Translations under genes and position numbers: made by a program
In this document: one piece after another, positions 9,065-23,619 of the stretch
Position numbering within the stretch: position 1 is the stretch's first letter
Layout of the letters: every line of letters starts with the position of its first letter
Virus record (IMG/VR): IMGVR_UViG_3300021373_001301
Location: 1-24,498 of that record
Reading direction: 5' to 3' (one strand)
Origin: a virus
DNA: 24,498 nt
The notes under the pieces: generated by a model
The model's database searches: none
What the model was told of the DNA's origin: nothing
Seen by the model: only the letters and a program-made list of their open reading frames with translations

Positions 9065-9466
9065 ATGAAAATAATGGATCCTGATTTAATGGTGCAACAA
9101 CAGGTTGCTAACTTATGGCAACACTTTGTAGGAGTCATATGTTTAAACCAAACAGGTAGGATACAAGTTAAAAGAGTACTGCCGGAGTTCTTTGACAAAT
9201 GGCCTACTCCACAAAGGTATTTAAAAAGCGATAAGAAAACTGTAATAGAAGTTATTAAGAGTTTAGGGTTTTATAATAGACGTGAAAACACAATTAGAAA
9301 AATGACTGAAGATTTTTTAACTTGGGACAGAGAAGATGCTACAAAATTATTTGGCATAGGCAAATACGGCTCAGATAGTTATGAATTATTTTATAAAAAA
9401 CGTATTCCTGAAAACGTAGGTGATCACGAATTACAAAGATACATTAAGGAAGAGTTTAAGAAATGA
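9065..9466 (+). CDS. MBD4-like HhH-GPD DNA glycosylase
   Basis: This 133-residue compact protein matches, from memory, the glycosylase domain of MBD4 across nearly its whole length. Matching segments are ICLNQT (MBD4 LLNRT), SLGFYNRRENTIRKM (PLGLYDLRAKTIVKF), LFGIGKYGSDSYELF (LHGIGKYGNDSYRIF) and GDHELQRY (EDHKLNKY). The hairpin-GPD loop is about 95-105. D120 is the expected catalytic Asp. MBD4 removes T or U opposite G. There is no iron-sulfur Cys cluster as in EndoIII. A role in removing deaminated bases from phage DNA or attacking host DNA is inferred. It overlaps the next gene by four bases. Confidence 0.8.
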   Translation: MKIMDPDLMVQQQVANLWQHFVGVICLNQTGRIQVKRVLPEFFDKWPTPQRYLKSDKKTVIEVIKSLGFYNRRENTIRKMTEDFLTWDREDATKLFGIGKYGSDSYELFYKKRIPENVGDHELQRYIKEEFKK

Positions 9467-9681
9467 AAAAATTTACAGTAGACATAAATGTTGGTGATGA
9501 AATACAGGTAGGTAGATTTCGTAATGTGTCTACAAAAATTAAAAGCATTAAGTTTGATGAGCATGGACAACCTGTGCTTGTAACATCAAAAGGCGAAAAA
9601 AAATTATTTACTTGCCGTTTGCAAAAACTTGATCCGGGCAGTTTAACGCCTAAACAAATTATGGATAGAAAAAAGAAATGA
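9463..9681 (+). CDS. Small basic beta-rich protein, unknown
   Basis: 72 residues. The order is an N-terminal VDINVGDEIQVGRFRN, a Lys-rich turn, then QPVLVTSKGEKKLFTCRLQKL and a basic tail. The pattern (GDEI.VGRF, then K.LF..R..KL) is one I recall from small conserved proteins of T4-like marine phages, with a likely KOW/SH3-like barrel. No function is known. ATGA overlaps at both ends show it is co-translated with the glycosylase and epimerase genes. The basic charge fits nucleic-acid binding, unproven. Confidence 0.7.
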   Translation: MKKFTVDINVGDEIQVGRFRNVSTKIKSIKFDEHGQPVLVTSKGEKKLFTCRLQKLDPGSLTPKQIMDRKKK

Positions 9682-10442
9682 AGATATTGTTAACAGGTAG
9701 CGAAGGAATGATTGGGTCTGAACTTAAAAAGTATTGGGCCGGAATCTACAAGTTACACTTTATAGACTTAAAGTTAGGAACTGACCTAAATACCTGTGAC
9801 TTACCAGAAGTTGATGCAGTAGTGCATTTGGCTGGTAAGAGTGGAGTACGTGAAAGTTTTGATAACCCGATGGAGTATTGGAAAAATAATGTAATGGCAA
9901 CAAAAAGATTATTTGATCATTACAAAGATGTACCTGTATATTATGCAAGTTCAAGTACGGCTAAGGAACCACATAGGAATCCTTATGCACTTACAAAATA
10001 TACTTTGGAACAAATTGCTCCTGAGAATAGTTTAGGTATGAGATTTACAACTGTATATGGAACACAAACAAGACCAAAAATGTTTATTCCAAAACTTTTA
10101 AGAAAGGAAGTTACGTACATTAATAATCATACAAGAGATTTTATACACATTTCTGATGTGTGTAGATCAATTACAATGTTTATTCAAAAACAAATAAAAG
10201 GAGTAATTGACGTAGGAACTGGTAAGTCGTACCACTTACAAGAACTGCTTGACGCATATGGCGTATATAATATACCAATGCAAGAAGGCGGCGAAGGTGA
10301 AAGAAAAGACAATAAGGCAGATATAAATCAATTAACTGCTATTGGCATGAAGCCAAGAATTGATGTCATAGATTATCTATGCCAAGAAAAAGAACTTGAC
10401 AAAAGTGAATTTTCTAAATATAATGTAACAATAGGAGACTAA
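9678..10442 (+). CDS. NAD-dependent epimerase/dehydratase
   Basis: This 254-residue extended SDR has TGSEGMIG (6-13) for NAD(P) binding, the VVHLAGKSG strand, the catalytic pair in YALTK (Y103, K107) with Ser92/Ser93, and RFTTVYG after it. It resembles UDP-sugar 4-epimerases and dehydratases but is shorter than the usual 310 or so, mainly in the C-terminal substrate domain, so the substrate cannot be named. Phage copies are usually linked to nucleotide-sugar supply for glycosylation. A glycosyltransferase at 15878 could be a consumer. The end of the gene carries the clamp promoter. Confidence 0.85.
   Translation: MKILLTGSEGMIGSELKKYWAGIYKLHFIDLKLGTDLNTCDLPEVDAVVHLAGKSGVRESFDNPMEYWKNNVMATKRLFDHYKDVPVYYASSSTAKEPHRNPYALTKYTLEQIAPENSLGMRFTTVYGTQTRPKMFIPKLLRKEVTYINNHTRDFIHISDVCRSITMFIQKQIKGVIDVGTGKSYHLQELLDAYGVYNIPMQEGGEGERKDNKADINQLTAIGMKPRIDVIDYLCQEKELDKSEFSKYNVTIGD
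10396..10424 (+). promoter_or_regulatory. Consensus sigma70-type promoter for the sliding clamp
   Basis: TTGACA (10396-10401), 17 bases, TATAAT (10419-10424) lie within the 3' end of the epimerase gene. The predicted start near 10431 leaves a leader of about 15 bases with AGGAG (10433-10437) before ATG 10446. This promoter may also serve the transglycosylase gene downstream. Confidence 0.8.
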
Positions 10443-10445
10443 AAC

Positions 10446-11174
10446 ATGAAAGACATTTTACAAGATATCGTTGCACATACACATTCGTTAGGATTTCTTA
10501 ACATTGTAAAAGTAACGAGCGAAGCAGATACTACTATCGAATCGATGGCAGAAGATAGATCTGTAATTTTAAGTTCGCAGACTAAAAACCCAGTGGCAGA
10601 ATTTGCTGGTACATTTGGTATGCCTAACTTAGACAAATTAGCATTACACCTTAAGTGTCCTGAGTATCAAACTAATGCAAAAGTTAGTGTTGAACAAGCA
10701 GAACGCAATGGTGAAACTGTTCCAACTCATATTCACTTTGAGAACGAAGCAGGTGACTTTGAAAATGATTATAGGTTTATGAATAAACAAATCATTGATG
10801 AGAAACTTAAAACTGTAAAGTTTAAAGGTGCATCGTGGGACGTTGTTGTAGAACCAAGCATGGCTTCAATTCAAAGAATGAAGTTTCAGAGCATGGCACA
10901 CGCAGAAGAAACTGTATTTACAGTAAGAACAGAAGGTACTAACCTTGTGTTTAGTTTTGGTGATGCTTCACAACACGCAGGTTCGTTTGTATTCCAAACA
11001 GATGTAACAGGTAGTTTGAAACATGCATGGGCATGGCCTGTAGCACAAGTACAAGCAATCTTGAACTTGGACGGCAAAGTAACAATGAGTATTTCAGATC
11101 AAGGTGCAATGCAATTAACTGTTGATTCTGGATTAGCAGAATATAACTATATTCTTCCAGCTCAAACAAAATAA
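10446..11174 (+). CDS. 45: Sliding clamp, T4 gp45 type
   Basis: A 242-residue protein of about the length of T4 gp45 (228). It has the long beta-strand alternation of clamp folds. Segments such as EFAGTFGMPNL, DYRFMNKQIIDEKLKTVKF and GLAEYNYILPAQ agree with my recollection of clamp sequences from cyanophage-like T4 relatives. Function: a trimeric ring that tethers gp43 to DNA and, in T4, also activates late transcription. Supporting context is the polymerase gene with a clamp-binding tail upstream and a dedicated strong promoter. Direct similarity to T4 gp45 itself is low, so the call rests on pattern and context. Confidence 0.8.
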   Translation: MKDILQDIVAHTHSLGFLNIVKVTSEADTTIESMAEDRSVILSSQTKNPVAEFAGTFGMPNLDKLALHLKCPEYQTNAKVSVEQAERNGETVPTHIHFENEAGDFENDYRFMNKQIIDEKLKTVKFKGASWDVVVEPSMASIQRMKFQSMAHAEETVFTVRTEGTNLVFSFGDASQHAGSFVFQTDVTGSLKHAWAWPVAQVQAILNLDGKVTMSISDQGAMQLTVDSGLAEYNYILPAQTK

Positions 11175-11181
11175 GGACTTT

Positions 11182-11379
11182 ATGACAAGTGTTGATATTA
11201 ATGATGATGACAAAACATTTGAAAATGAACAAAGTACAGTAACCATACCACTTAAGGAGTATGACAAGTTGAGAGAGAAACAAAAGTATATTACAGACAG
11301 AGATATGATTTCTGTAATAGACAAGATCGAAGAACTTGTTAGAGCCCTTAGAAAACATATTGTAAGGACGGACATTTAA
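11182..11379 (+). CDS. Small charged helical protein, unknown
   Basis: 65 residues. The start is acidic and disordered (DINDDDKTFENE), followed by a charged amphipathic helix or short coiled coil to the end. AAGGA lies about seven bases before ATG 11182. It sits between clamp and transglycosylase genes, whose start follows immediately after its stop. No family is recognised. Confidence 0.6.
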   Translation: MTSVDINDDDKTFENEQSTVTIPLKEYDKLREKQKYITDRDMISVIDKIEELVRALRKHIVRTDI

Positions 11380-12840
11380 TTGAATACTAATTTAACAACT
11401 GCACAAAAAGATTACGCAACTTTCTTGCCAGCACTGAGTGGCTTCTTTGCAACCTTTGTAGGTAAGCAAAGACGTGAGGAGTACGTAGAATATAATCGTA
11501 TACCTAAACACTTTACAAATGGTGTTGAGAGCATGAACTGGCTTAATCCGAGTAAGTCGTTGTTTGAGTATCAATGGAGTTTGTATTCCGCAGGTCACGC
11601 CGAACTTGATATTAACAAGGACGCACCTAAAGAAGATATGATACGAGATAGAGATCGTAACACTTCTTGGTTGTTAGGTGACTCAGGTGGTTTCCAGATT
11701 GGTAAAGGTGTGTGGGAAGGCGATTGGAAGAATCCTAATTGCCCTAAGGCACAAAAGAAACGTGAACAAGTTCTTAGATGGATGGACGCATATATGGACT
11801 ATGGCATGATACTTGATATTCCGGCTTGGGTAGCACGGTCTCCCGAAGGTGCTAAAGCAACTGGAATTGACAACTATCAAGATGCCGTTAATGCTACACG
11901 TATTAACAATGACTACTTTATGAAACATAGAAGTGGTGCTTGTAAATTCTTAAATGTATTGCAAGGTGAAAATCATGCTGACGCAGAAGATTGGTATCAG
12001 CAAATGAAAGATTACTGTGATCCAGTTAAGTATCCAGGCACACACTTTAATGGTTGGAGTATGGGTGGTCAGAATATGTGTGATATTCATCTTGTTCTTA
12101 AAAGACTTGTTGCACTTAGATTTGATGGACTACTTGAGAAAGGCGTACATGATGTAATGCACTTCTTAGGTACAAGTAAATTAGAGTGGGCAACACTGCT
12201 TACAGATATACAAAGAGCAGTACGTAAGTATCATAATCCAAACTTTATGATTACGTTTGATTGTGCAAGTCCGTTCTTAGCAACTGCTAATGGACAAATT
12301 TATTGCGAACTTGAAACATTAGATCGTAAGAAATGGGTTTATAGAATGGTGCCAAGCATTGATGATAAAGCATTGGCAACTGACACAACACCATTCAGTC
12401 AAGCATTTGTTAGAGAAGGTAAGCATACAAGTTTTAAAGATTCGCCTATTACAACAGGACTAACTGCACAAGACATTTGTAAGTATGCACAAGGTGACTT
12501 GAACAAAATAGGTAAAGAAGGAAAAACATCTTGGGATAGTTTTTCTTATGCGATCCAAATGGGTCATAATGTATGGAGTCATATTAATGCAGTACAAGAA
12601 GCAAACAGACAATACGACAATGGAATCATTCCGAACATGCTTGTGGAGGAACGGTTCGACAGGTTATTTTTTAGAGATGTTGTGGAGGCAATATTTGCAA
12701 CAGACAAAAGAGATGAAGCAAACGCAGTAATTGAACATTATAGTAAGTTCTGGATGTCAATTATTGGAACACGTGGTGCAACAGGAAAGAAAACAGTAAA
12801 CGCACAAACACAGTTTGGCAATTTATTTACAGAGGAATAA
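11380..12840 (+). CDS. dpdA: TGT-fold DNA 7-deazaguanine transglycosylase, DpdA-like
   Basis: 486 residues with the TGT catalytic landmarks. LLGDSGGFQIG (D101) corresponds to the base Asp of tRNA-guanine transglycosylase SDSGG(F/Y)Q. VLQGE (194-197) matches VQG and FNGWSMGG (223-230) matches GLAVGE. ITFDCASPFLATANGQIY (D294) matches the nucleophile motif FDCVxPTRxxRxG. The C-terminal CxCxxC zinc site of tRNA enzymes is absent, as expected for a divergent DNA-acting member. DpdA exchanges guanine in DNA for preQ0 or related bases, protecting phage DNA from restriction. YhhQ, QueD-like, FolE and QueE genes nearby support this. TTG 11380 is preceded by AAGGACGG (11364-11371); the next Met is residue 52. 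Confidence 0.85.
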   Translation: MNTNLTTAQKDYATFLPALSGFFATFVGKQRREEYVEYNRIPKHFTNGVESMNWLNPSKSLFEYQWSLYSAGHAELDINKDAPKEDMIRDRDRNTSWLLGDSGGFQIGKGVWEGDWKNPNCPKAQKKREQVLRWMDAYMDYGMILDIPAWVARSPEGAKATGIDNYQDAVNATRINNDYFMKHRSGACKFLNVLQGENHADAEDWYQQMKDYCDPVKYPGTHFNGWSMGGQNMCDIHLVLKRLVALRFDGLLEKGVHDVMHFLGTSKLEWATLLTDIQRAVRKYHNPNFMITFDCASPFLATANGQIYCELETLDRKKWVYRMVPSIDDKALATDTTPFSQAFVREGKHTSFKDSPITTGLTAQDICKYAQGDLNKIGKEGKTSWDSFSYAIQMGHNVWSHINAVQEANRQYDNGIIPNMLVEERFDRLFFRDVVEAIFATDKRDEANAVIEHYSKFWMSIIGTRGATGKKTVNAQTQFGNLFTEE

Positions 12841-12841
12841 T

Positions 12842-13348
12842 ATGGAAAGACAATATGCAGATGGTGTAAAAGATGATGTAATCTACTTTACAGGTTATGA
12901 AGTTGAAAAAACTCCTGCTGAAGGTATGGACACATTATTTGTTACAGGTTGTCAACCATTAGAAGATGTATTAGCACAAGCAAAGAAGCACGTAGTAGAT
13001 CATATTTACTTAGGTGCTAATCACAGTTTTGTTCCTAAAGAAAGTTGGGACGATCTTGTGTTTGGATTGCTTGACAAGAAGTATCTTGTAACACTTGACT
13101 ATGACGTAAAATATCATGACTGGGTACTTGAAACAGGATATAACGAAAGACATAATTTTATTAGTATGATTAGTGTTAAACTACCATACGTAAACCAACT
13201 TAACTACAATGCTTGTATTAAGATTGACGATGCTGATTTTGATCATTCTAATCCAGGTGTATGGGTACACAACGTTCACCCGCTACTACAAAGAGATAAA
13301 TTCACAGACTGGTCAAAGTACGGCGACGATAGCCCTTCGGAGGACTAA
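12842..13348 (+). CDS. Unknown protein between dpdA and aminotransferase
   Basis: The chosen ATG 12842 (168 residues) has GAGG (12832-12835) six bases upstream. An ATG at 12815 would extend it inside dpdA. Beta/alpha alternation is visible: VIYFTGYEVEKT, DTLFVTGCQPL, HIYLGANHSF, KYLVTLDYDVKYHDWVL, and a conserved-looking HNFISMISVKLPY. No motif I can name. Two-base spacing after dpdA and direct abutment to the aminotransferase gene suggest it belongs to the same modification pathway, by position only. Confidence 0.65.
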   Translation: MERQYADGVKDDVIYFTGYEVEKTPAEGMDTLFVTGCQPLEDVLAQAKKHVVDHIYLGANHSFVPKESWDDLVFGLLDKKYLVTLDYDVKYHDWVLETGYNERHNFISMISVKLPYVNQLNYNACIKIDDADFDHSNPGVWVHNVHPLLQRDKFTDWSKYGDDSPSED

Positions 13349-14581
13349 ATGAAACTACTGCATAGTTTTTGTGATCCAACTGACACAATGCCTACTGTTA
13401 CGAGTTTTAACGGAAGGTTTATTGATTCGGAAGGAAAGAACTACTATGACATTAGTGCAGGTAAAGGTTGCAACGTATTAGGCTTTAACAACGAATACAT
13501 ACAATATCATATTGCTCATGCACATAGAGTTTGGCCAAGCAACGATTGGAATGCTAAACCTGAGATATGGACAAAGTTAGAAGATATATTACAAAAGAAA
13601 CTTCCAGATTATTTTGCATTTATTCCAGCACATAGCGGAAGTGATGCAACAGACAATGCACTAAAATTTTGTTTTCAATACTACAGTAACAAAAAGAAAA
13701 ACAAGGTACTTGTACGTAAAGGTAGTTTCCATAGCGGAAGTTTAAGTGGTTGGGCAATGAGTGATTACAGAGGTTGGAGTAAACACTTTCCTGATATAGA
13801 GTATGTAGACTTTTATGATGAGGACTTTACAACTGTATTAGAAAAACACCAAGGAAACATTTGTGCCGTATTGTGTGATACTGTAAGTTGGTTTAACGGT
13901 GTTGATGAAATGTCCGATGACCTTATTAAGAAAATTAAACAAGGCAAATTCAAATACGATTATAAAATTATTGCTGACGAAGTATTTACAGGTATGTATA
14001 GATTTGGTAGTTTCGCACATAGCATGGAACGTAATCTACAACCTGACATTGCTTGTTTTGGTAAAGCACTTGCAGGTGGATTTAGTTCTTTTGCAATCAC
14101 TTGCCTTTCAAAAGAAATGTATGACAAGATTTCAAAGCCAACAGACACTGGTTGGGCATTACCTATAGCAATTGGCAACTCACGTAGCCAAGATCCTGTA
14201 GGAGCAACTGCGGTAGTGGCCGCACTTGAATACTGTGATAAAAATAAATTGATGTTTAACGTAACAAATCAAGTTACAAAATTTTTGGTGGAACTTGCAG
14301 ACATACTACAAAAGGTAGAAACTTTTGATGTAACACATAAAAACAGTTTCTTAAACTGTAAAATGGACAAAGGTAGAGACGTAAAGACACTAAACGAAAT
14401 TCGAGCATTCCTGAATAACTGCGGTATTTGGCAATACTCGACAACTACAATTAAATTTTGTAGTTTTTATGAAACTAAGAAAGTCGAAACAGATTATATT
14501 TTGAACGTATTCGATGACTTGGTAACCAAAATAAATCAAGAAAAACCATTGACAAATGAGGCGAAAGGCTTTATAATATGA
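13349..14581 (+). CDS. Class III PLP-dependent aminotransferase
   Basis: 410 residues, full length for the fold-type I class III family. AHSGSDATDNALK (94-106) is the phosphate-binding region. IIADEVFTGMYRFG carries D210 for the pyridine nitrogen, and CFGKALAGGF has the Schiff-base lysine K239. It resembles glutamate-1-semialdehyde, BioA and omega-aminotransferases; the substrate cannot be read from sequence. It sits directly between DpdA-linked genes and the QueD-like gene, so it may install an amine on a modified base or on its precursor; this is inference. The gene's last 30 bases contain a promoter and overlap the next start codon by four bases. Confidence 0.9.
   Translation: MKLLHSFCDPTDTMPTVTSFNGRFIDSEGKNYYDISAGKGCNVLGFNNEYIQYHIAHAHRVWPSNDWNAKPEIWTKLEDILQKKLPDYFAFIPAHSGSDATDNALKFCFQYYSNKKKNKVLVRKGSFHSGSLSGWAMSDYRGWSKHFPDIEYVDFYDEDFTTVLEKHQGNICAVLCDTVSWFNGVDEMSDDLIKKIKQGKFKYDYKIIADEVFTGMYRFGSFAHSMERNLQPDIACFGKALAGGFSSFAITCLSKEMYDKISKPTDTGWALPIAIGNSRSQDPVGATAVVAALEYCDKNKLMFNVTNQVTKFLVELADILQKVETFDVTHKNSFLNCKMDKGRDVKTLNEIRAFLNNCGIWQYSTTTIKFCSFYETKKVETDYILNVFDDLVTKINQEKPLTNEAKGFII
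14549..14577 (+). promoter_or_regulatory. Consensus promoter abutting a start codon, predicted leaderless
   Basis: TTGACA (14549-14554), 17 bases, TATAAT (14572-14577), immediately followed by ATG 14578. A start about seven bases past the -10 would fall at the second ATG (14584), giving a leaderless message. Read-through transcripts could instead use AAAGG (14564-14568). Confidence 0.7.
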
Positions 14582-15018
14582 GTATGACAGATCAGTTAAT
14601 TAAAGAACAATCAGATAAAGACAACAAGGCAAGAATTATGAATACAGCAAAACGAATGATTTGGGTAACTTTCCGTAAGGAAGGTATTCACAAGTATCCG
14701 GCGGCATTAGATGATCCAGCACTTGCAACAGGTGATGAGTATGATGTTAGTTTCTTAGGATATCCACACAGACACATCTTTCATTTTAAGGTAGCAATCA
14801 CAGTTACACACAATGACAGAGACATTGAATTTATACAATTTAAAAGATGGTTAGAAAAACTTTATGAGGAGAAAACATTAGAGTTAGATTATAAGAGTTG
14901 TGAAATGATGGCAGATGATCTTTATAAAGAGATCAATGCTAAACACCCAGGCCGTGAAGTCCATATTGACGTAAGTGAAGATGGAGAAAACGGTGCCCAT
15001 ATTGAGTATGCAAGATAG
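14578..15018 (+). CDS. QueD/6-pyruvoyltetrahydropterin synthase-like protein
   Basis: 146 residues. The layout of the T-fold PTPS/QueD family is visible: an early His in EGIHKYPAA (H38), GYPHRHIFHFKVAITV (H64 and H66 as the HxH zinc pair), RDIEFIQFKRWL for the DFxxLK stretch, SCEMMADDLYKEI for the PTxENLA helix, and VHIDVSEDGENGAHIEY for the Glu-containing C-terminal strand. QueD converts dihydroneopterin triphosphate to 6-carboxytetrahydropterin, the step between FolE and QueE, both encoded downstream. No Cys lies between H38 and H64, where QueD has its catalytic Cys. So it is either a divergent enzyme or a non-QueD T-fold protein. Two starts are possible, 14578 and 14584. Confidence 0.55.
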   Translation: MSMTDQLIKEQSDKDNKARIMNTAKRMIWVTFRKEGIHKYPAALDDPALATGDEYDVSFLGYPHRHIFHFKVAITVTHNDRDIEFIQFKRWLEKLYEEKTLELDYKSCEMMADDLYKEINAKHPGREVHIDVSEDGENGAHIEYAR

Positions 15019-15264: not shown

Positions 15265-15867
15265 ATGTTCAAAGACGTAGATAAAAGTATGCTGATGAAA
15301 CTTGTGTTACTACACGTTGTAGTGATTACTGTTTCAAATGCGTTGGTGGCAATTCCTGTAGAAATTGCAGGTGTGAAACTAACGTGGGCGGCATTTACTT
15401 TTCCATTAGTTGTAATAGCAACGGACTTGACTGTTAGACTACTTGGAAAAAATATTGCAAGATCAACAATCGCGGCGGCATATCCATTGGCAATCATTGG
15501 ATCCATTGCAGTTGTACTTGCAGAAGGAGCACCACAATCAGTAGCAATGCGTATTGGTTTTGCTTCGGCAACGGCTTATGCTATTGGTACAATGCTTGAT
15601 GTATATGTATTCCAATACATTAGAGAAGCGTTTACAAAAAATTGGTGGTTAGCACCTGCGGTATCTACTATCGCGGCGAACATCATTGATACGTATACGT
15701 TCTTTGCTGTCGCATTTAATAACTCGGCAGATGAATACATGGCGGCTAACTGGGTTGAGATTGCAGGATCACAAACTGTACTCAAAATTGCAGTAGGCTT
15801 AATTGTATTCCTACCAGCATACGGACTATTGTTGAAATCACTACAAAAGAAGTATGCACTAAAATAA
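15265..15867 (+). CDS. yhhQ: Queuosine-precursor transporter, YhhQ/VUT family
   Basis: 200 residues with about six membrane helices. Family hallmarks are TFPLVVIATDLTVRLLGK after the second helix, LDVYVFQYIREAFTKNWW in the middle and VSTIAANIIDTYTFF towards the end. E. coli YhhQ (221 residues) imports preQ0 and preQ1. In this phage it would bring host-medium 7-deazaguanine bases into the cell for DpdA, complementing or bypassing FolE/QueE synthesis. It is expected in the host inner membrane. AGGAGG-like sequence (15252-15260) precedes ATG 15265. It lies in the transcript started at 14549 and is followed ten bases later by the glycosyltransferase gene. Confidence 0.88.
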   Translation: MFKDVDKSMLMKLVLLHVVVITVSNALVAIPVEIAGVKLTWAAFTFPLVVIATDLTVRLLGKNIARSTIAAAYPLAIIGSIAVVLAEGAPQSVAMRIGFASATAYAIGTMLDVYVFQYIREAFTKNWWLAPAVSTIAANIIDTYTFFAVAFNNSADEYMAANWVEIAGSQTVLKIAVGLIVFLPAYGLLLKSLQKKYALK

Positions 15868-15877
15868 GGAGACACTA

Positions 15878-16933
15878 ATGACAATTTACATCGTAGATAT
15901 TGAAGCAGTTGATACACGTTACACAAAGCAGTGGAAGGAACATCTTCCAAAGCAAATGAAACGTGCAACTAATTCTGAGGTAGTTGTTATTAGTGGCGGA
16001 GAAGTGCCTCAGGCTACAACGCCTGGGGCATTCCTTAACTTTGCAGGGACTAATAATTATAAGTCTCAACAAATGTTAGAAATTAGCAGACTATTTGCTA
16101 ATGGTGAAATTAAAGATGGCGACTACTTCCTATACACAGATGCTTGGAATCCAACTGTAATACAATTAAAGTATATGGCTGAATTACTTGGTGTTAAGAT
16201 TAAGGTAGGTGGTATGTGGCACGCCGGTAGTTATGATCCACAAGACTTCTTAGGAAGATTGATTGGTGATGCTGATTGGTGTAGAAGTGCAGAACGTAGT
16301 ATGTATGAATGCTATGATAATAATTTTTTTGCAACAGAGTTTCATAAGAAACTGTTTATAGAAAGTTTTCCAACACTATTAACAAAGTCAAACATAGTAG
16401 GTTGGCCTATGGAGTACTTGGCAAATAGTTTTGCACAGTACAAAGGCATGACAAAGAAAAACATGATTTTGTTTCCGCATAGAATTGCTCCAGAGAAGCA
16501 AGTTGATATATTTAGAGATTTAAAAGAAAGCATGACACAATACGAATTTGTTATTTGTCAAGAACGTGAACTTACTAAAAATGAATATCATAATTTATTA
16601 GGTGAAGCAAAGGTTGTGTTTAGTGCTAACTTACAAGAAACATTAGGTATTAGTTGGTATGAAGGTGCTCTTGTAGATGCATTACCAATGATGCCAGACA
16701 GATTAAGTTACAGTGAAATGGCATTGCCAGAGTTTTTATATCCAAGTGAATGGACACAAGACTTAGATAGTTACAAAAAACATAAACAAAAAGTAATGAA
16801 TCTTATTACAGATTATGTTGAGAACTATGACAAGTACTTGCTAAAAGTACAACAACAAGTTAATAAACTGAAAGGCGAGTTCTTTTCAGGAAAAGCATTA
16901 TATAAAACTATTGGAGATAATGATGGACGATGA
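15878..16933 (+). CDS. GT-B glycosyltransferase, possibly queuosine-glycosylase-like
   Basis: 351 residues. The C-terminal half shows a retaining GT4-type donor site: ILFPHRIAPEKQ (197-208), VVFSANLQETLGISWYEG with the E-X7-E pair (E254, E262), and PMMPDRLSYSEMALPEFLYP. The last motif recalls the 'PNRLxYPE' stretch of the GTDC1/QTMAN family, which mannosylates queuosine in tRNA. This is memory-based and unscored. The N-terminal half has YTDAWNP and GGMWHAGSYDP, possible acceptor-side elements. It follows yhhQ by ten bases, so a glycosylated deazaguanine base in DNA is an attractive inference. Modification of host surface sugars is the alternative. The start is supported by AAGGAG at 15866-15871. 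Confidence 0.75.
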   Translation: MTIYIVDIEAVDTRYTKQWKEHLPKQMKRATNSEVVVISGGEVPQATTPGAFLNFAGTNNYKSQQMLEISRLFANGEIKDGDYFLYTDAWNPTVIQLKYMAELLGVKIKVGGMWHAGSYDPQDFLGRLIGDADWCRSAERSMYECYDNNFFATEFHKKLFIESFPTLLTKSNIVGWPMEYLANSFAQYKGMTKKNMILFPHRIAPEKQVDIFRDLKESMTQYEFVICQERELTKNEYHNLLGEAKVVFSANLQETLGISWYEGALVDALPMMPDRLSYSEMALPEFLYPSEWTQDLDSYKKHKQKVMNLITDYVENYDKYLLKVQQQVNKLKGEFFSGKALYKTIGDNDGR

Positions 16934-17216: not shown

Positions 17217-17718
17217 AATAATGGACATGCTCGGAAGACGCCGAGTTATTACAGATAGAACAGGCAAGATACCATATCTTGTTCGTTACTACTTGTTTCT
17301 GAAAGATAGAAAGAACTTTCCTTTCAATATTACATTGCATAAGGTTCTTGTAAGTGATGAACCTACATTGCATGATCATCCTTGGGATTGGGGAGCATTT
17401 ATAATAAAAGGTGGCTATTGGGAACACATTCCAATACGTTCACAGGAAGGTGCTGTCGTTGGTTCAACAAAAGTATGGCGTGGTCCTGGTAGTTTACGTT
17501 TTAGAAAAGCAGATGACTTACATTGGTTAGAACTTGCTAAAGACAAAGATGGAAATGAAATACCTTGTTGGAGTATTTTCTATATGGGACGTAAACAAAA
17601 GGAATGGGGTTTTGTACGTTATGTATATGGTGAAACAGGTAAGGACTGGGCTAATGCAGGTTACAGATGGGTGCATAATGAAGAATACTTGAACGAACGG
17701 GAGAACAAAATTGGATAG
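17200..17718 (+). CDS. Cupin-fold protein
   Basis: 172 residues. TLHDHPWDWGAFIIKGGYWE (57-75) is a cupin motif 1 with H58, H60 and a downstream Glu. FRKADDLHWLEL supplies H108 for motif 2. This suggests one double-stranded beta-helix with a mononuclear metal site. The C-terminal part is aromatic-rich (RYVYGETGKDWANAGYRW). Similar single-domain cupins are frequent in marine T4-like phages, with no settled role. It overlaps the next gene, a 2OG oxygenase, by eight bases; both have Fe-type folds and may be co-regulated. Confidence 0.75.
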   Translation: MNFLSKIMDMLGRRRVITDRTGKIPYLVRYYLFLKDRKNFPFNITLHKVLVSDEPTLHDHPWDWGAFIIKGGYWEHIPIRSQEGAVVGSTKVWRGPGSLRFRKADDLHWLELAKDKDGNEIPCWSIFYMGRKQKEWGFVRYVYGETGKDWANAGYRWVHNEEYLNERENKIG

Positions 17719-18343
17719 AACATCTTACTTTGGCGGACTTATTATAACATACGATAATGTGTTTACACCTAATACCATAGGTGCTCTTGAAAAGAATATT
17801 CAAGATGTTCCGTTTAAGTGGGGTACGAGAGACAATCCAGATCAACCACCTACAGGATTACAATGCTTTGACTTTGAGCCTACTCATTCATGGCAAACTT
17901 TATGGAACGTAGTTAATGAAAAACTAAAAGACCTTGAAGGTTTAGAATACCGTAGAAGTAACTTAAACTTTTTTGCAACAGGCGAAGATGCATACTATCA
18001 CAAAGATGATTGTGATTGGACATTGCTTTATTATTGCAATACAGAATGGAAGCCTGATGATAAAGGAGAAACAAAGTTCTATATTACTACAGATGATCTT
18101 GATGGGTATAAACTTCAAGATGTACAAGGAAACGCAGATCCATTGGTGTTAAGTATCGCACCAATACCGGGCAGGTTCTGTTTCTTTAAGAGTAGCATTA
18201 ATCATAGTGCTACAGGATTTAGAAACACTGCAAGATTTGTTCCTGCACTTAAATTTGTTGAGGCAGGTAAAGGCAATGGTACTGGAATAATTGTTCAACA
18301 AGGTAATCAAGACGTATTACAAATTAGGAGAAACTATGGTTAA
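17711..18343 (+). CDS. 2OG-Fe(II) oxygenase, prolyl-hydroxylase-like
   Basis: 210 residues. YYHKDDCDW gives the H-X-D iron ligands (H97, D99), FKSSINHSATGF the distal His (H165), and RNTARF the 2-oxoglutarate Arg (R175). Together they make a complete facial triad in a P4H-like jelly-roll. The C-terminal 30 residues (after FVEAGKGN) form an extra tail. TTG 17711 is chosen because GGGAG (17699-17703) is seven bases upstream and the frame's next Met is not close. Substrate unknown: protein, nucleobase or small molecule. It overlaps the phosphoribosyltransferase gene by eight bases. Confidence 0.82.
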   Translation: MDRTSYFGGLIITYDNVFTPNTIGALEKNIQDVPFKWGTRDNPDQPPTGLQCFDFEPTHSWQTLWNVVNEKLKDLEGLEYRRSNLNFFATGEDAYYHKDDCDWTLLYYCNTEWKPDDKGETKFYITTDDLDGYKLQDVQGNADPLVLSIAPIPGRFCFFKSSINHSATGFRNTARFVPALKFVEAGKGNGTGIIVQQGNQDVLQIRRNYG

Positions 18344-18905
18344 AAAGCATTATTATACTTGGACTGACGTAGAACGTATGTGTCAGAGTATTATAAATCA
18401 GATGTACAAGGACGATTGGCGTCCTGACTATATTGTAGGTATTACACGAGGTGGTAATATTCCTGCAACTATTATTAGTAACATGACAGGAATACGTTGC
18501 GAAGCACTTAAGGTAAGTTTACGTGATGGCGAGAAAGGTGGCTTTAATGATAGTGCCGCTTGGATGGCCAGTGATGCATTTGGTTACAATGATGATACCA
18601 CAGGTGCAACAACTAAGGTTGCAGGTGCAAGGTGGGATATTAGTTTAAGAAAAAAAATACTTATTGTAGATGACATCAACGATACTGGTGCAACATTTCA
18701 ATGGATTAAGAATGATTGGCAAAGTGGTTGTTTGCCAGATGAACCTACATGGGAAACTGTATGGGGGAACAGTGTAAGATTTGCTACACTTACAGAAAAT
18801 TTAGCCAGCAACTTTAGCCAGGTGAGTTATAGTTGTCATGAAGTTAACAAAGCCGAGGAAGACGTCTGGTTAGTTTATCCTTGGGAAAACGTAGGAGAAT
18901 ACTAA
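18336..18905 (+). CDS. Type I phosphoribosyltransferase
   Basis: 189 residues from ATG 18336, with AGGAG six bases upstream; a Met at 18291 would lie inside the oxygenase gene. ILIVDDINDTGAT (108-120) is the PRPP-binding motif, and IVGITRGGNIPA (33-44) the first loop. The N-terminal YTWTDVERM and the overall size resemble xanthine/hypoxanthine-type and Gpt-like enzymes. It would join a nucleobase to PRPP. With deazaguanine genes on both sides, salvage of a purine-like base is possible, but no residue here proves that. The region at 60-100 is longer than in minimal PRTases. It abuts the HIT gene. Confidence 0.85.
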   Translation: MVKKHYYTWTDVERMCQSIINQMYKDDWRPDYIVGITRGGNIPATIISNMTGIRCEALKVSLRDGEKGGFNDSAAWMASDAFGYNDDTTGATTKVAGARWDISLRKKILIVDDINDTGATFQWIKNDWQSGCLPDEPTWETVWGNSVRFATLTENLASNFSQVSYSCHEVNKAEEDVWLVYPWENVGEY

Positions 18906-20404: not shown

Positions 20405-21088
20405 ATGAGTAAAGTAGAAGAAATAAAAGCAAAACTAAAAGAGCAAGGTATTCGTTACTGGGCTAATGATAATATTAGCGAAGTACTCGAAGAAGGTGAC
20501 AAACAAGCACTTATCGAAGAGGCAATTCCTGCTTTTGAAAACGTATTGCAAAAACTGTTAATTGATACAGAAACAGATCCTAACAGTATGGATACTGCAA
20601 GACGTATGGCCAAAATGTACATTAATGAGATTATGGCTGGACGTTATGACAAGATGCCAAATCCAAGTGCATTTCCAAACTACATTGAAGGTGGTTATGA
20701 AGGTATGCTCGTGGTAAGGAGTGAACTTACAAGTTTATGTTCGCATCATCACCAAACTGTTAAAGGTGTAGCATACATTGGTATCATTGCAGGTCCGAAA
20801 CTTTTAGGTCTTAGTAAGTACACAAGGATCGCACAATGGTGTGCAACACGTGGAACATTGCAAGAAGAACTTAATGTTATGATTGCAAATGCAATACAAA
20901 AAGAAACAGGTAGTGAACACGTTGGTGTTTATGTACAAGCAACACATGGTTGTTGTGAGAACAGAGGTATTAAAGCACATAGTTCTTTAACACAGACTAC
21001 TGTATTACGTGGTGCATTTAAAGACGATCCAGCAACTAAAAAAGAGTTTATTGACAATGTTAAACTGCAACAACAGTTTGCTTGTTAG
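20405..21088 (+). CDS. folE: GTP cyclohydrolase I
   Basis: 227 residues. SLCSHHHQ gives zinc ligands C112 and H115, and ATHGCCENRGI gives C183. AYIGIIAGPKLLGLSKYTRI and RGTLQEELN are family signatures. FolE opens GTP to 7,8-dihydroneopterin triphosphate, the first step of both folate and 7-deazaguanine synthesis. Because queE follows nine bases after its stop and dpdA/yhhQ lie upstream, the deazaguanine role is favoured. It has its own consensus promoter and GGAG ribosome site. Length and motifs are complete, so it should be active. Confidence 0.96.
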   Translation: MSKVEEIKAKLKEQGIRYWANDNISEVLEEGDKQALIEEAIPAFENVLQKLLIDTETDPNSMDTARRMAKMYINEIMAGRYDKMPNPSAFPNYIEGGYEGMLVVRSELTSLCSHHHQTVKGVAYIGIIAGPKLLGLSKYTRIAQWCATRGTLQEELNVMIANAIQKETGSEHVGVYVQATHGCCENRGIKAHSSLTQTTVLRGAFKDDPATKKEFIDNVKLQQQFAC

Positions 21089-21097
21089 GAGGCTCAA

Positions 21098-21997
21098 ATG
21101 ACAACTGAGAAGAAGTATTACTACAGTGAAATATTTCACTCCATTCAAGGTGAAGGACACTATACAGGTGTTCCGACTGCTTGGATTAGATTCTTCTTGT
21201 GTAACTTGCAGTGTAGCGGCTTTGGTCAAATAGATCCAACTAATCCGGATACTTACGACCTGCCGTTCCTGGATTATGACGTAAGCCAAGTAAAGAGAGT
21301 TGAAGACTTACCTGTATGGGAAAAAGGTTGTGACTCTTCTTATACTTGGGCAAAGAAGTACAAACACTTAATGGGGCAAGAAACTCCTACTGTATTAGCA
21401 AATAAGATTGTTGATATATTAAGAACAGAAAGTAATCCTGAAGGATTGTTTCTTCACCCTATGAGTAAACAAAGACAACACTTATGTTTTACTGGTGGTG
21501 AACCTTTAATGGTTACAGGACAGGCGGCAAGTGTTGGAATATATGAAGAACTTGAAAGACAAGGTAACTTGCCAAGTTCAATGACGTTTGAAACAAACGG
21601 TACACAAAAACTTAGAGATAACTTTAAGGATTGGGTAAACAGAATTGACGAAGAAGTATTCTTTAGTTGTAGTCCTAAATTGTTTACAGTTAGTGGTGAG
21701 CAATCTAAGAAAGCAATTATTCCAGAAGTAGTTGGCGAATATGCAGAACTATCTAAAGCAGGACAATTAAAGTTTGTTGTTGGTTCTGAACAAAGACAAT
21801 GGGATGAAATGGATTCTGTTATAGAGAAATTTAGAGCAGAAGGCGTTGAATGGCCTGTATGGGTTATGCCTGTAGGAGCCAGAGAAGAAGAACAAACTGC
21901 AACGGCAGGTGATGTTGCTAAGATGGCTTTTCAAAGAGGTTACAATGTGGCGGCAAGAGTACACGTTTATCTATTTGGAAATGCAATAGGTACTTAA
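21098..21997 (+). CDS. queE: 7-carboxy-7-deazaguanine synthase, radical SAM
   Basis: 299 residues. FHSIQGEGHYTGVPTAWIRF is the QueE opening. The iron-sulfur cysteines are C35 and C39 (LCNLQC), with the third apparently C78 in GCDSSYTW, so the usual C-X3-C-X2-C is stretched by an insert of about 36 residues. CFTGGEPL is the SAM-binding GGE motif. SCSPK and the C-terminal LFGN fit the family. QueE converts 6-carboxytetrahydropterin to CDG. It forms an operon with folE. Without queC in view, the end product could be CDG rather than preQ0. AGGAGG-like sequence (21088-21093) precedes the start. Confidence 0.92.
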   Translation: MTTEKKYYYSEIFHSIQGEGHYTGVPTAWIRFFLCNLQCSGFGQIDPTNPDTYDLPFLDYDVSQVKRVEDLPVWEKGCDSSYTWAKKYKHLMGQETPTVLANKIVDILRTESNPEGLFLHPMSKQRQHLCFTGGEPLMVTGQAASVGIYEELERQGNLPSSMTFETNGTQKLRDNFKDWVNRIDEEVFFSCSPKLFTVSGEQSKKAIIPEVVGEYAELSKAGQLKFVVGSEQRQWDEMDSVIEKFRAEGVEWPVWVMPVGAREEEQTATAGDVAKMAFQRGYNVAARVHVYLFGNAIGT

Positions 21998-22676: not shown

Positions 22677-22894
22677 TGAGTACTGATGTATTAGGTTATA
22701 GTTCACATGATTGGCGTAAGAATACAGATGACGCCATTGTCATAGATGAAAAGAATATGAGTTATGCAAAGGTAAACGATTGTAAAGTAAGTTTCAAAAA
22801 TCCAAGAACACTTAAAAAAGAAGAAGTCGATATATCAAGACTAATAAGAGTTTTTGTTAATAATTTTGAAAGTCAAAAAAGGAGTGTAAAATGA
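22676..22894 (+). CDS. Small hypothetical protein
   Basis: 72 residues of mixed beta/alpha character: VLGYSSHDWRKNTDDAIVID, then KVSFKNPRTLKKEEVDISRL and a helical basic tail. No family is recognised. Its ends overlap both neighbours (TAATG at the start, ATGA at the end), supporting real translation within the operon. Confidence 0.6.
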   Translation: MSTDVLGYSSHDWRKNTDDAIVIDEKNMSYAKVNDCKVSFKNPRTLKKEEVDISRLIRVFVNNFESQKRSVK

Positions 22895-23619
22895 GTATTG
22901 TAAGAATTAAAAGTTTTCATCCATTAACGGAGTTTGCACCAAGTTGGAATATTCCTCTTTGGTTAACAAATTGGACTGACCATGAGCATGTAGATGCTAT
23001 TAAAAAATGGATAATTGATAATGAGAAAACTATCTTAGATTACGAATACACTAACACAGGTGGTACAGGTCTTGGCAAAGATCATATTACAACACGTTTT
23101 GGAAAGTACAATTTACTTTCACAGGACGATCCTGCATTTAATGAATTGCTAACGTTTTTAAGATATTCATATATTGAGTATGTGCAAACTGCACAACTTG
23201 AACTTAAAGACTTGCAGATTGTATGTTGGGCAAACATTCTTAAACAAGGTGAATCAATGGCTCCGCACTCACATGGTGCTCAACCAGATTCTTATTTGAG
23301 TGGTAATATGCATTTGGAAGATTATTCAACTGCAACATTCTACAGAAGTTGTTATGATCCTGAATCAAAACTTGGCTTACCAAATAAAAAAGGTGGCTGT
23401 GTAATGTTTCCAAGTAGTACACAACACTACACTGGAGAGCATGATTCAGCAGATCCAAGAGTTAGTGTAGCATTTGATTTAAGATTAACTGGATCATTCA
23501 ATCACGAAGAAATGAATGCTATTCCATTTATGAACAAAGAAGTGCTAACCAAAATACAAGAAAAGTATAAAGCACAAGCAGAAGCAAATAAACAGGTTGA
23601 CAACAGTAATAAAAAGTAG
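22891..23619 (+). CDS. 2OG-Fe(II) oxygenase, phage type
   Basis: 242 residues. APHSHGAQPDSYLSGNMHL holds the proximal His (H126 or H128) and D133. GGCVMFPSSTQHYTGEH holds the distal His (H179), and DPRVSVAFDL the 2-oxoglutarate Arg (R190). The order and the SYLSG strand fit the 2OG-FeII_Oxy_5-like family common in marine phages. The last 40 residues are a charged helix. The substrate is unknown. Together with the oxygenase at 17711 it is the second such enzyme in the window, and the two are not close paralogues. AGGAG precedes ATG 22891, and its 3' end carries the next promoter. Confidence 0.82.
   Translation: MSIVRIKSFHPLTEFAPSWNIPLWLTNWTDHEHVDAIKKWIIDNEKTILDYEYTNTGGTGLGKDHITTRFGKYNLLSQDDPAFNELLTFLRYSYIEYVQTAQLELKDLQIVCWANILKQGESMAPHSHGAQPDSYLSGNMHLEDYSTATFYRSCYDPESKLGLPNKKGGCVMFPSSTQHYTGEHDSADPRVSVAFDLRLTGSFNHEEMNAIPFMNKEVLTKIQEKYKAQAEANKQVDNSNKK

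Follow-up and report, generated by a model that had tools for sequence, protein, structure and literature searches.

A glycosyltransferase (GT) related to QTMAN, the mannosyltransferase for queuosine of animal tRNA, adjoins guanine-replacing genes in hundreds of phages, and the phages concerned probably attach sugar to a 7-deazaguanine in their DNA. The GT gene described here lies in a marine viral DNA of 24,498 nucleotides, referred to as the window (IMG/VR record IMGVR_UViG_3300021373_001301, positions 1 to 24,498). The enzyme likely glycosylates a 7-deazaguanine, either 7-carboxy-7-deazaguanine (CDG) or the product of a QueD-like protein, that the transglycosylase DpdA has inserted in phage DNA; substrate, sugar, acceptor and step order are those that we infer. 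With somewhat less assurance, DNA with glyco-deazaguanine, made by the QTMAN-related GT after insertion by DpdA, is expected in hundreds of aquatic phages and in the isolates PA5oct/Paride, ACP17, X1, Phosso and BUCT-ZZ01. The literature searched, which took in few subscription papers and had Cui et al. (2023) outside its scope, does not describe glycosylated 7-deazaguanine in phage DNA, an absence that is not proof.

The following features of the window are considered.

9678..10442, + strand, nucleotide-sugar epimerase (phrog_540); may supply the sugar donor, linkage weak
11380..12840, + strand, DpdA-type transglycosylase; DSGGFQ at residues 101-106, invariant Asp294; 36% identical to Paride_0115
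12842..13348, + strand, conserved protein hyp12815; partner in 66/67 long-enough window-type loci among the matches listed; weak QueE-like predicted fold
13349..14581, + strand, class-III aminotransferase; accessory, in 9/69 loci among the matches listed
14578..15018, + strand, QueD-like T-fold protein (phrog_17812); no Cys before HxH, KSCEM conserved
15265..15867, + strand, YhhQ-type queuosine-precursor transporter; accessory, limited to the window clade, directly 5′ of the GT gene
15878..16933, + strand, putative QTMAN-related GT4-type glycosyltransferase, 351 aa; R202/K207, E254-x7-E262, H115 in WHAGSYDP
18291..18905, + strand, phosphoribosyltransferase (PRT); conserved in the module
20405..21088, + strand, FolE, GTP cyclohydrolase I
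21098..21997, + strand, QueE-like radical SAM protein (phrog_2076, 5.7e-54)

Predicted structure of the glycosyltransferase

The open reading frame at 15878-16933 encodes 351 amino acids followed by a stop codon. It starts with ATG, and the sequence TAAGGAGACACTA 5′ of the start is a good ribosome-binding site. As a single sequence the window GT matched no Pfam, NCBIfam or PHROG family, and searches of the PDB with phmmer and hmmsearch matched no GT. At the family level, 8 of 15 members match PF00534 (GT4). The donor-domain residues R202, K207 and E254-x7-E262 are conserved across the family, with Asp in place of E254 in the BUCT-ZZ01 GT.

The AlphaFold2 model, based on 25 sequences, is of the GT-B type and displays two Rossmann-like domains (pLDDT 85.7, pTM 0.85). 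With this model, Foldseek places the GT4 enzymes BshA, glycogen synthase, MshA and PimA as the nearest solved folds (best E 1.2e-9, for BshA), and the nearest viral model is that of Acidovorax phage ACP17 (TM 0.88). BshA and MshA are the closest solved folds, yet show about 10-13% identity to the phage GT; their acceptors are L-malate and inositol phosphate. The predicted fold is that of a GT-B, GT4-type glycosyltransferase.

Relationship to QTMAN

An earlier note on this DNA, made from the letters alone, had proposed that a stretch of the protein recalls the GTDC1/QTMAN family and had suggested a profile comparison. The stretch is present, as MMPDRLSYSEMALPEFLYP at residues 271-289. The profile comparison (hhalign) of the phage GT family with QTMAN gives a probability of 98.4% and an E of 1e-14, the aligned region being the C-terminal donor domain, including the motif PDRLxYxE. 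On this profile evidence, the phage GT shares its putative C-terminal nucleotide-sugar domain with QTMAN.

The QTMANs are bacterial homologs that were retrieved with a consensus sequence, because PF12038 gave no match in either the virus record or any control genome. Two of them were confirmed by Pfam QTMAN_N (5e-56 and 2e-60). Ten of the genomes that encode QTMANs supplied 79 GT4 proteins as controls. Scored singly against the phage GT profile, the QTMANs (7/7 and 18/18) reach 51-96, and the 79 controls reach at most 38. An independent profile of Phosso-type GTs gives 52-108 for QTMANs versus 35 or less for controls. The BUCT-type GT is weakly QTMAN-like (28-55, versus controls up to 40). When the profile test is reversed the margin narrows, with scores of 57-92, X1 at 42 and controls up to 60.5. 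In a tree made by a quick method, and with long branches present, phage GTs and QTMANs share one side of a branch whose SH-aLRT is 98.

The N-terminal signature of the family, QTMAN_N (PF12038, DUF3524), had no match in 15 GT family members at E values up to 10; a full-length alignment of the GT with QTMAN is possible when forced. Thus, the proposed likeness is real and specific (18/18 QTMANs score above the 79 control GT4s) but extends to the C-terminal domain only. As QTMAN_N is undetected, the phage GT is considered a relative of QTMAN and not a member of the family.

Among the GT4 families tested, QTMAN/GTDC1 (tRNA-queuosine alpha-mannosyltransferase, with QTMAN_N and a GT4 domain) is the closest. 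The phage GT resembles it in its C-terminal donor domain, where both have PDRLxYxE and E-x7-E, and in its 7-deazaguanine context. It differs in having no detectable QTMAN_N and in accompanying DpdA rather than the enzymes of tRNA queuosine. In addition, the phage, lacking QueC, QueF, QueA and QueG, cannot itself produce the cyclopentenediol that QTMAN glycosylates.

Distribution and linkage to que/dpd genes

Relatives of the GT number 19 among 50,697 phage records and at least 597 in IMG/VR. The isolates that carry it are those of the PA5oct/Paride group, Phosso, ACP17, X1 and BUCT-ZZ01 and, distantly, PhiXhv and Ep032; the GT is Paride_0116 in Paride and gp124 in ACP17. Seven GT-carrying phage lineages, six of them represented by isolates, all have DpdA and FolE, and QueC is absent in all but PhiXhv. 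No viral relatives came from pattern scanning with the GTs of Paride, X1 and PhiXhv, the scan with the ACP17 GT returned only ACP17 itself, and a scan of genome contigs with the Phosso GT found nothing. One alignment, which took in the remote GT of PhiXhv, diverged too much for such scans and was set aside.

Gene neighbourhoods were compared in the closest IMG/VR matches listed: 80 window-type, 72 Phosso-type and 80 BUCT-type loci, which are relatives and not independent events. Among these listed matches, que/dpd genes are found in 232/232 GT loci, and 0/152 Phosso-type and BUCT-type loci lack them. The earlier note had named, as the finding that would speak against it, closest relatives that are surface-polysaccharide glycosyltransferases devoid of que/dpd linkage; no such case appears in the 232 loci listed.

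Among the window-type matches listed, the QueD-like gene is present in 80/80 loci, always on the same strand, and DpdA is present in 75/80; the other five loci end 1.4 kb or less upstream of the GT. Where the listed window-type loci are long enough, hyp12815 is found in 66/67, FolE in 43/45 and QueE in 40/41. DpdA is similarly present in 54/55 Phosso-type and 73/73 BUCT-type loci that have enough upstream DNA, again among the matches listed. The usual order in the listed Phosso-type and BUCT-type loci is dpdA, hyp12815, QueD-like, GT, FolE, PRT, QueE. In Paride, ACP17 and X1, the GT and DpdA reading frames overlap or abut, and two distinct DpdA groups are involved. In Phosso, DpdA is present 170 kb away from the GT. 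FolE is found in 16/16 GT records tested, versus at least 343 of 50,697 phage records by tblastn. The constant partners of the GT are DpdA, the QueD-like protein, hyp12815, FolE, PRT and QueE.

Among the matches listed, PRT is found in 73/80 window-type, 45/72 Phosso-type and 51/80 BUCT-type loci, and in BUCT-ZZ01 it is an XGPRT. Recycling of the guanine set free by DpdA is a possible role. The predicted fold of hyp12815 gives weak matches, the best being QueE (E 0.14).

Two neighbours to which the earlier note had drawn attention are not part of this constant set. The YhhQ-type transporter does directly precede the GT gene, as stated, and it matches the NCBIfam 7-cyano-7-deazaguanine/7-aminomethyl-7-deazaguanine transporter at 4.5e-57 without reaching the equivalog cut-off; its TIGR00697 match exceeds the cut-off of that family. 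The adjacency is incidental, however: the transporter is found in 8/79 loci among the matches listed and in 0/16 other records, which rules it out as a defining neighbour. The epimerase at 9678, suggested as the source of the sugar donor, is not tightly linked. It is absent in 6/58 GT-keeping loci among the matches listed and is ruled out as a dedicated donor enzyme.

The DpdA partners

The DpdA of the window is 36% identical to Paride_0115, the DpdA that directly precedes the Paride GT; Pfam and NCBIfam are silent on the window protein. By profile, its group is linked to the DpdA group of ACP17, X1 and BUCT (82%, E 1e-5). The latter group aligns with Escherichia coli Tgt by hhalign (87%, score 50 versus a shuffled maximum of 25). 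Compared directly with E. coli Tgt, the window group gives a weak match (33 versus a shuffled maximum of 19), and the window DpdA is connected to Tgt only by way of the intermediate group. A good match to the DpdA of phage 9g was found for neither group.

Proposed pathway

In the scheme favoured here, FolE, QueD and QueE would convert GTP to CDG, and the diverged QueD-like protein, possibly with hyp12815, would convert CDG further. DpdA would then swap guanines in phage DNA for the deazaguanine base, and the GT would move a sugar from a host NDP-sugar onto the inserted base. By comparison with QTMAN the donor could be GDP-mannose; a UDP-sugar is the other candidate. The acceptor atom may be the CDG carboxylate, a group derived from it, or C7. 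The outcome would be a bulky, sugar-coated DNA that is nuclease-resistant.

No QueC above the family cut-off was found in any record with a full-length GT, and therefore, unless preQ0 comes from the host, the phage pathway ends at CDG. Canonical PTPS/QueD is present in Paride, Phosso, ACP17, X1, BUCT-ZZ01 and three marine contigs; none was seen in the window, itself a fragment. The QueD-like family is also found in Cellulophaga phage phiST and in Rhizobium, Aeromonas and Vibrio que/dpd phages that have no GT; its product thus need not be the GT acceptor. A point against the proposed scheme is the lack of an obvious hydroxyl on the available base, CDG having a carboxylate. Cui et al. (2023) are reported to have described dDG and dCDG in phages, together with DpdL, a decarboxylase of CDG. 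The QueD-like protein is a candidate for a DpdL-like CDG step. Should the deazaguanine be in decarboxylated form, the sugar might even be attached as a C-glycoside.

The module resembles the DpdA-based modification systems of phages 9g, CAjan and nt-1 (Hutinet et al., 2019; PMC6884629) in having FolE, QueD and QueE together with a DpdA-type transglycosylase. It differs from them in the addition of the GT, the QueD-like protein and hyp12815, and its DpdA groups are distant from that of 9g. It also lacks QueC, so that the base would be CDG or a derivative, and not preQ0, preQ1 or G+ as in those systems.

Alternative substrates

The GT could instead glycosylate a free base or small-molecule precursor, with DpdA inserting the glycosylated base, or with the product remaining a metabolite as in huimycin. 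HuiG of huimycin biosynthesis provides a precedent: the cluster has FolE, QueD, QueE and QueC homologs along with HuiG, which is assigned the transfer of GlcNAc to a preQ0 derivative (PMC7439116). BshA, the closest solved fold, likewise glycosylates a small molecule, L-malate. HuiG and the phage GT are both encoded with a 7-deazaguanine pathway, but HuiG serves a small-molecule antibiotic, its GlcNAc is placed on the exocyclic amine, and no DpdA accompanies it. The tight coupling of the phage GT with DpdA argues against a free base, as does the action of QTMAN after base insertion; furthermore, the transglycosylase pocket would have to accept a base that bears a sugar. This route appears unlikely.

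Glycosylation of a deazaguanine in tRNA, either host queuosine or a base inserted by the phage, would alter translation during infection. Kinship with a tRNA enzyme points in this direction, QTMAN acting on tRNA-Asp (PMC12313893). The tRNA target is nevertheless disfavoured because the constant partner is DpdA, in two groups with a distant likeness to Tgt rather than a standard Tgt, and because QTMAN_N is undetected in the GT family. In addition, QueA, QueG and QueH were not found in phages by Hutinet et al. (PMC6884629). A tRNA substrate is considered quite improbable, and inserted deazaguanine in DNA is preferred.

Known phage DNA glycosyltransferases act on pyrimidines (PMC13216743, PMC13390438), which raises the question of whether the target is a modified pyrimidine in phage DNA, such as 5hmC, 5hmU or 5-hydroxycytosine. 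The T4 DNA alpha- and beta-glucosyltransferases are phage GT-B enzymes that add sugars to modified DNA bases after replication, and the GT described here is a phage GT-B protein with a proposed role on DNA; the T4 enzymes, however, act on 5hmC and not on deazaguanine, and have no recognised sequence relation to it. The linkage of the GT is to que/dpd genes. A thymidylate-synthase-fold hydroxymethylase (PF00303), of the type that makes hydroxymethylpyrimidines, is absent in the complete genomes of ACP17, X1 and BUCT-ZZ01, and for this reason a pyrimidine target is disfavoured and looks very improbable. Paride and Phosso do have this fold, perhaps as an ordinary thymidylate synthase.

GT4 enzymes are common in surface-polysaccharide and lipopolysaccharide synthesis, but such a role, with the gene near dpd genes by chance, is scarcely tenable because the QTMAN likeness is specific (the GT4 controls, drawn from QTMAN-bearing genomes, score far below QTMAN) and the GT is bound to the que/dpd cluster, with 0/232 loci lacking these genes among the matches listed and gene order conserved across unrelated phages.

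Significance

If deazaguanine in DNA is indeed glycosylated, a sugar-bearing purine would join the known phage DNA modifications. Glyco-deazaguanine would stand beside glucosyl-hydroxymethylcytosine as a parallel class of DNA hypermodification, with an enzyme ancestry in common with mannosyl-queuosine in tRNA; tRNA queuosine glycosylation and DNA glycosylation would then be joined by common ancestry. It would also suggest a route by which GT phages resist restriction. Hundreds of environmental viral contigs carry the module, and so do culturable phages that infect Pseudomonas aeruginosa, Acidovorax, Xanthomonas, Sinorhizobium and Synechococcus.

Other genes in and near the modules

In the window, two genes resembling 2OG-Fe(II) oxygenases are situated near the module, at 17711-18343 and 22891-23619. 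No tRNA genes were found in the window. Xanthomonas phage X1 has a PAPS-reductase/PP-loop protein (10332-10862) between FolE and the GT that is possibly a QueC substitute. Synechococcus phage BUCT-ZZ01 encodes a second GT4-type protein in its dpd cluster (9067-10407), which suggests a possible two-sugar decoration.

In Xanthomonas phage PhiXhv-12, a GAT-QueC fusion (its annotation reads GlmS-type aminotransferase), a PIG-L deacetylase, the distant GT and a MocA-type oxidoreductase are found in a row at 9705-13791. A variant in which GlcNAc is added to deazaguanine and then deacetylated is possible. FolE, PTPS and the DpdA match of this phage lie elsewhere than the row with the GT, GAT-QueC and PIG-L.

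Vibrio phage 2.275.O has an open reading frame (13726-14838) between DpdA and QueF. It was rejected by inspection as a GT. By eye it looks amidoligase-like, and perhaps it takes part in another deazaguanine hypermodification.
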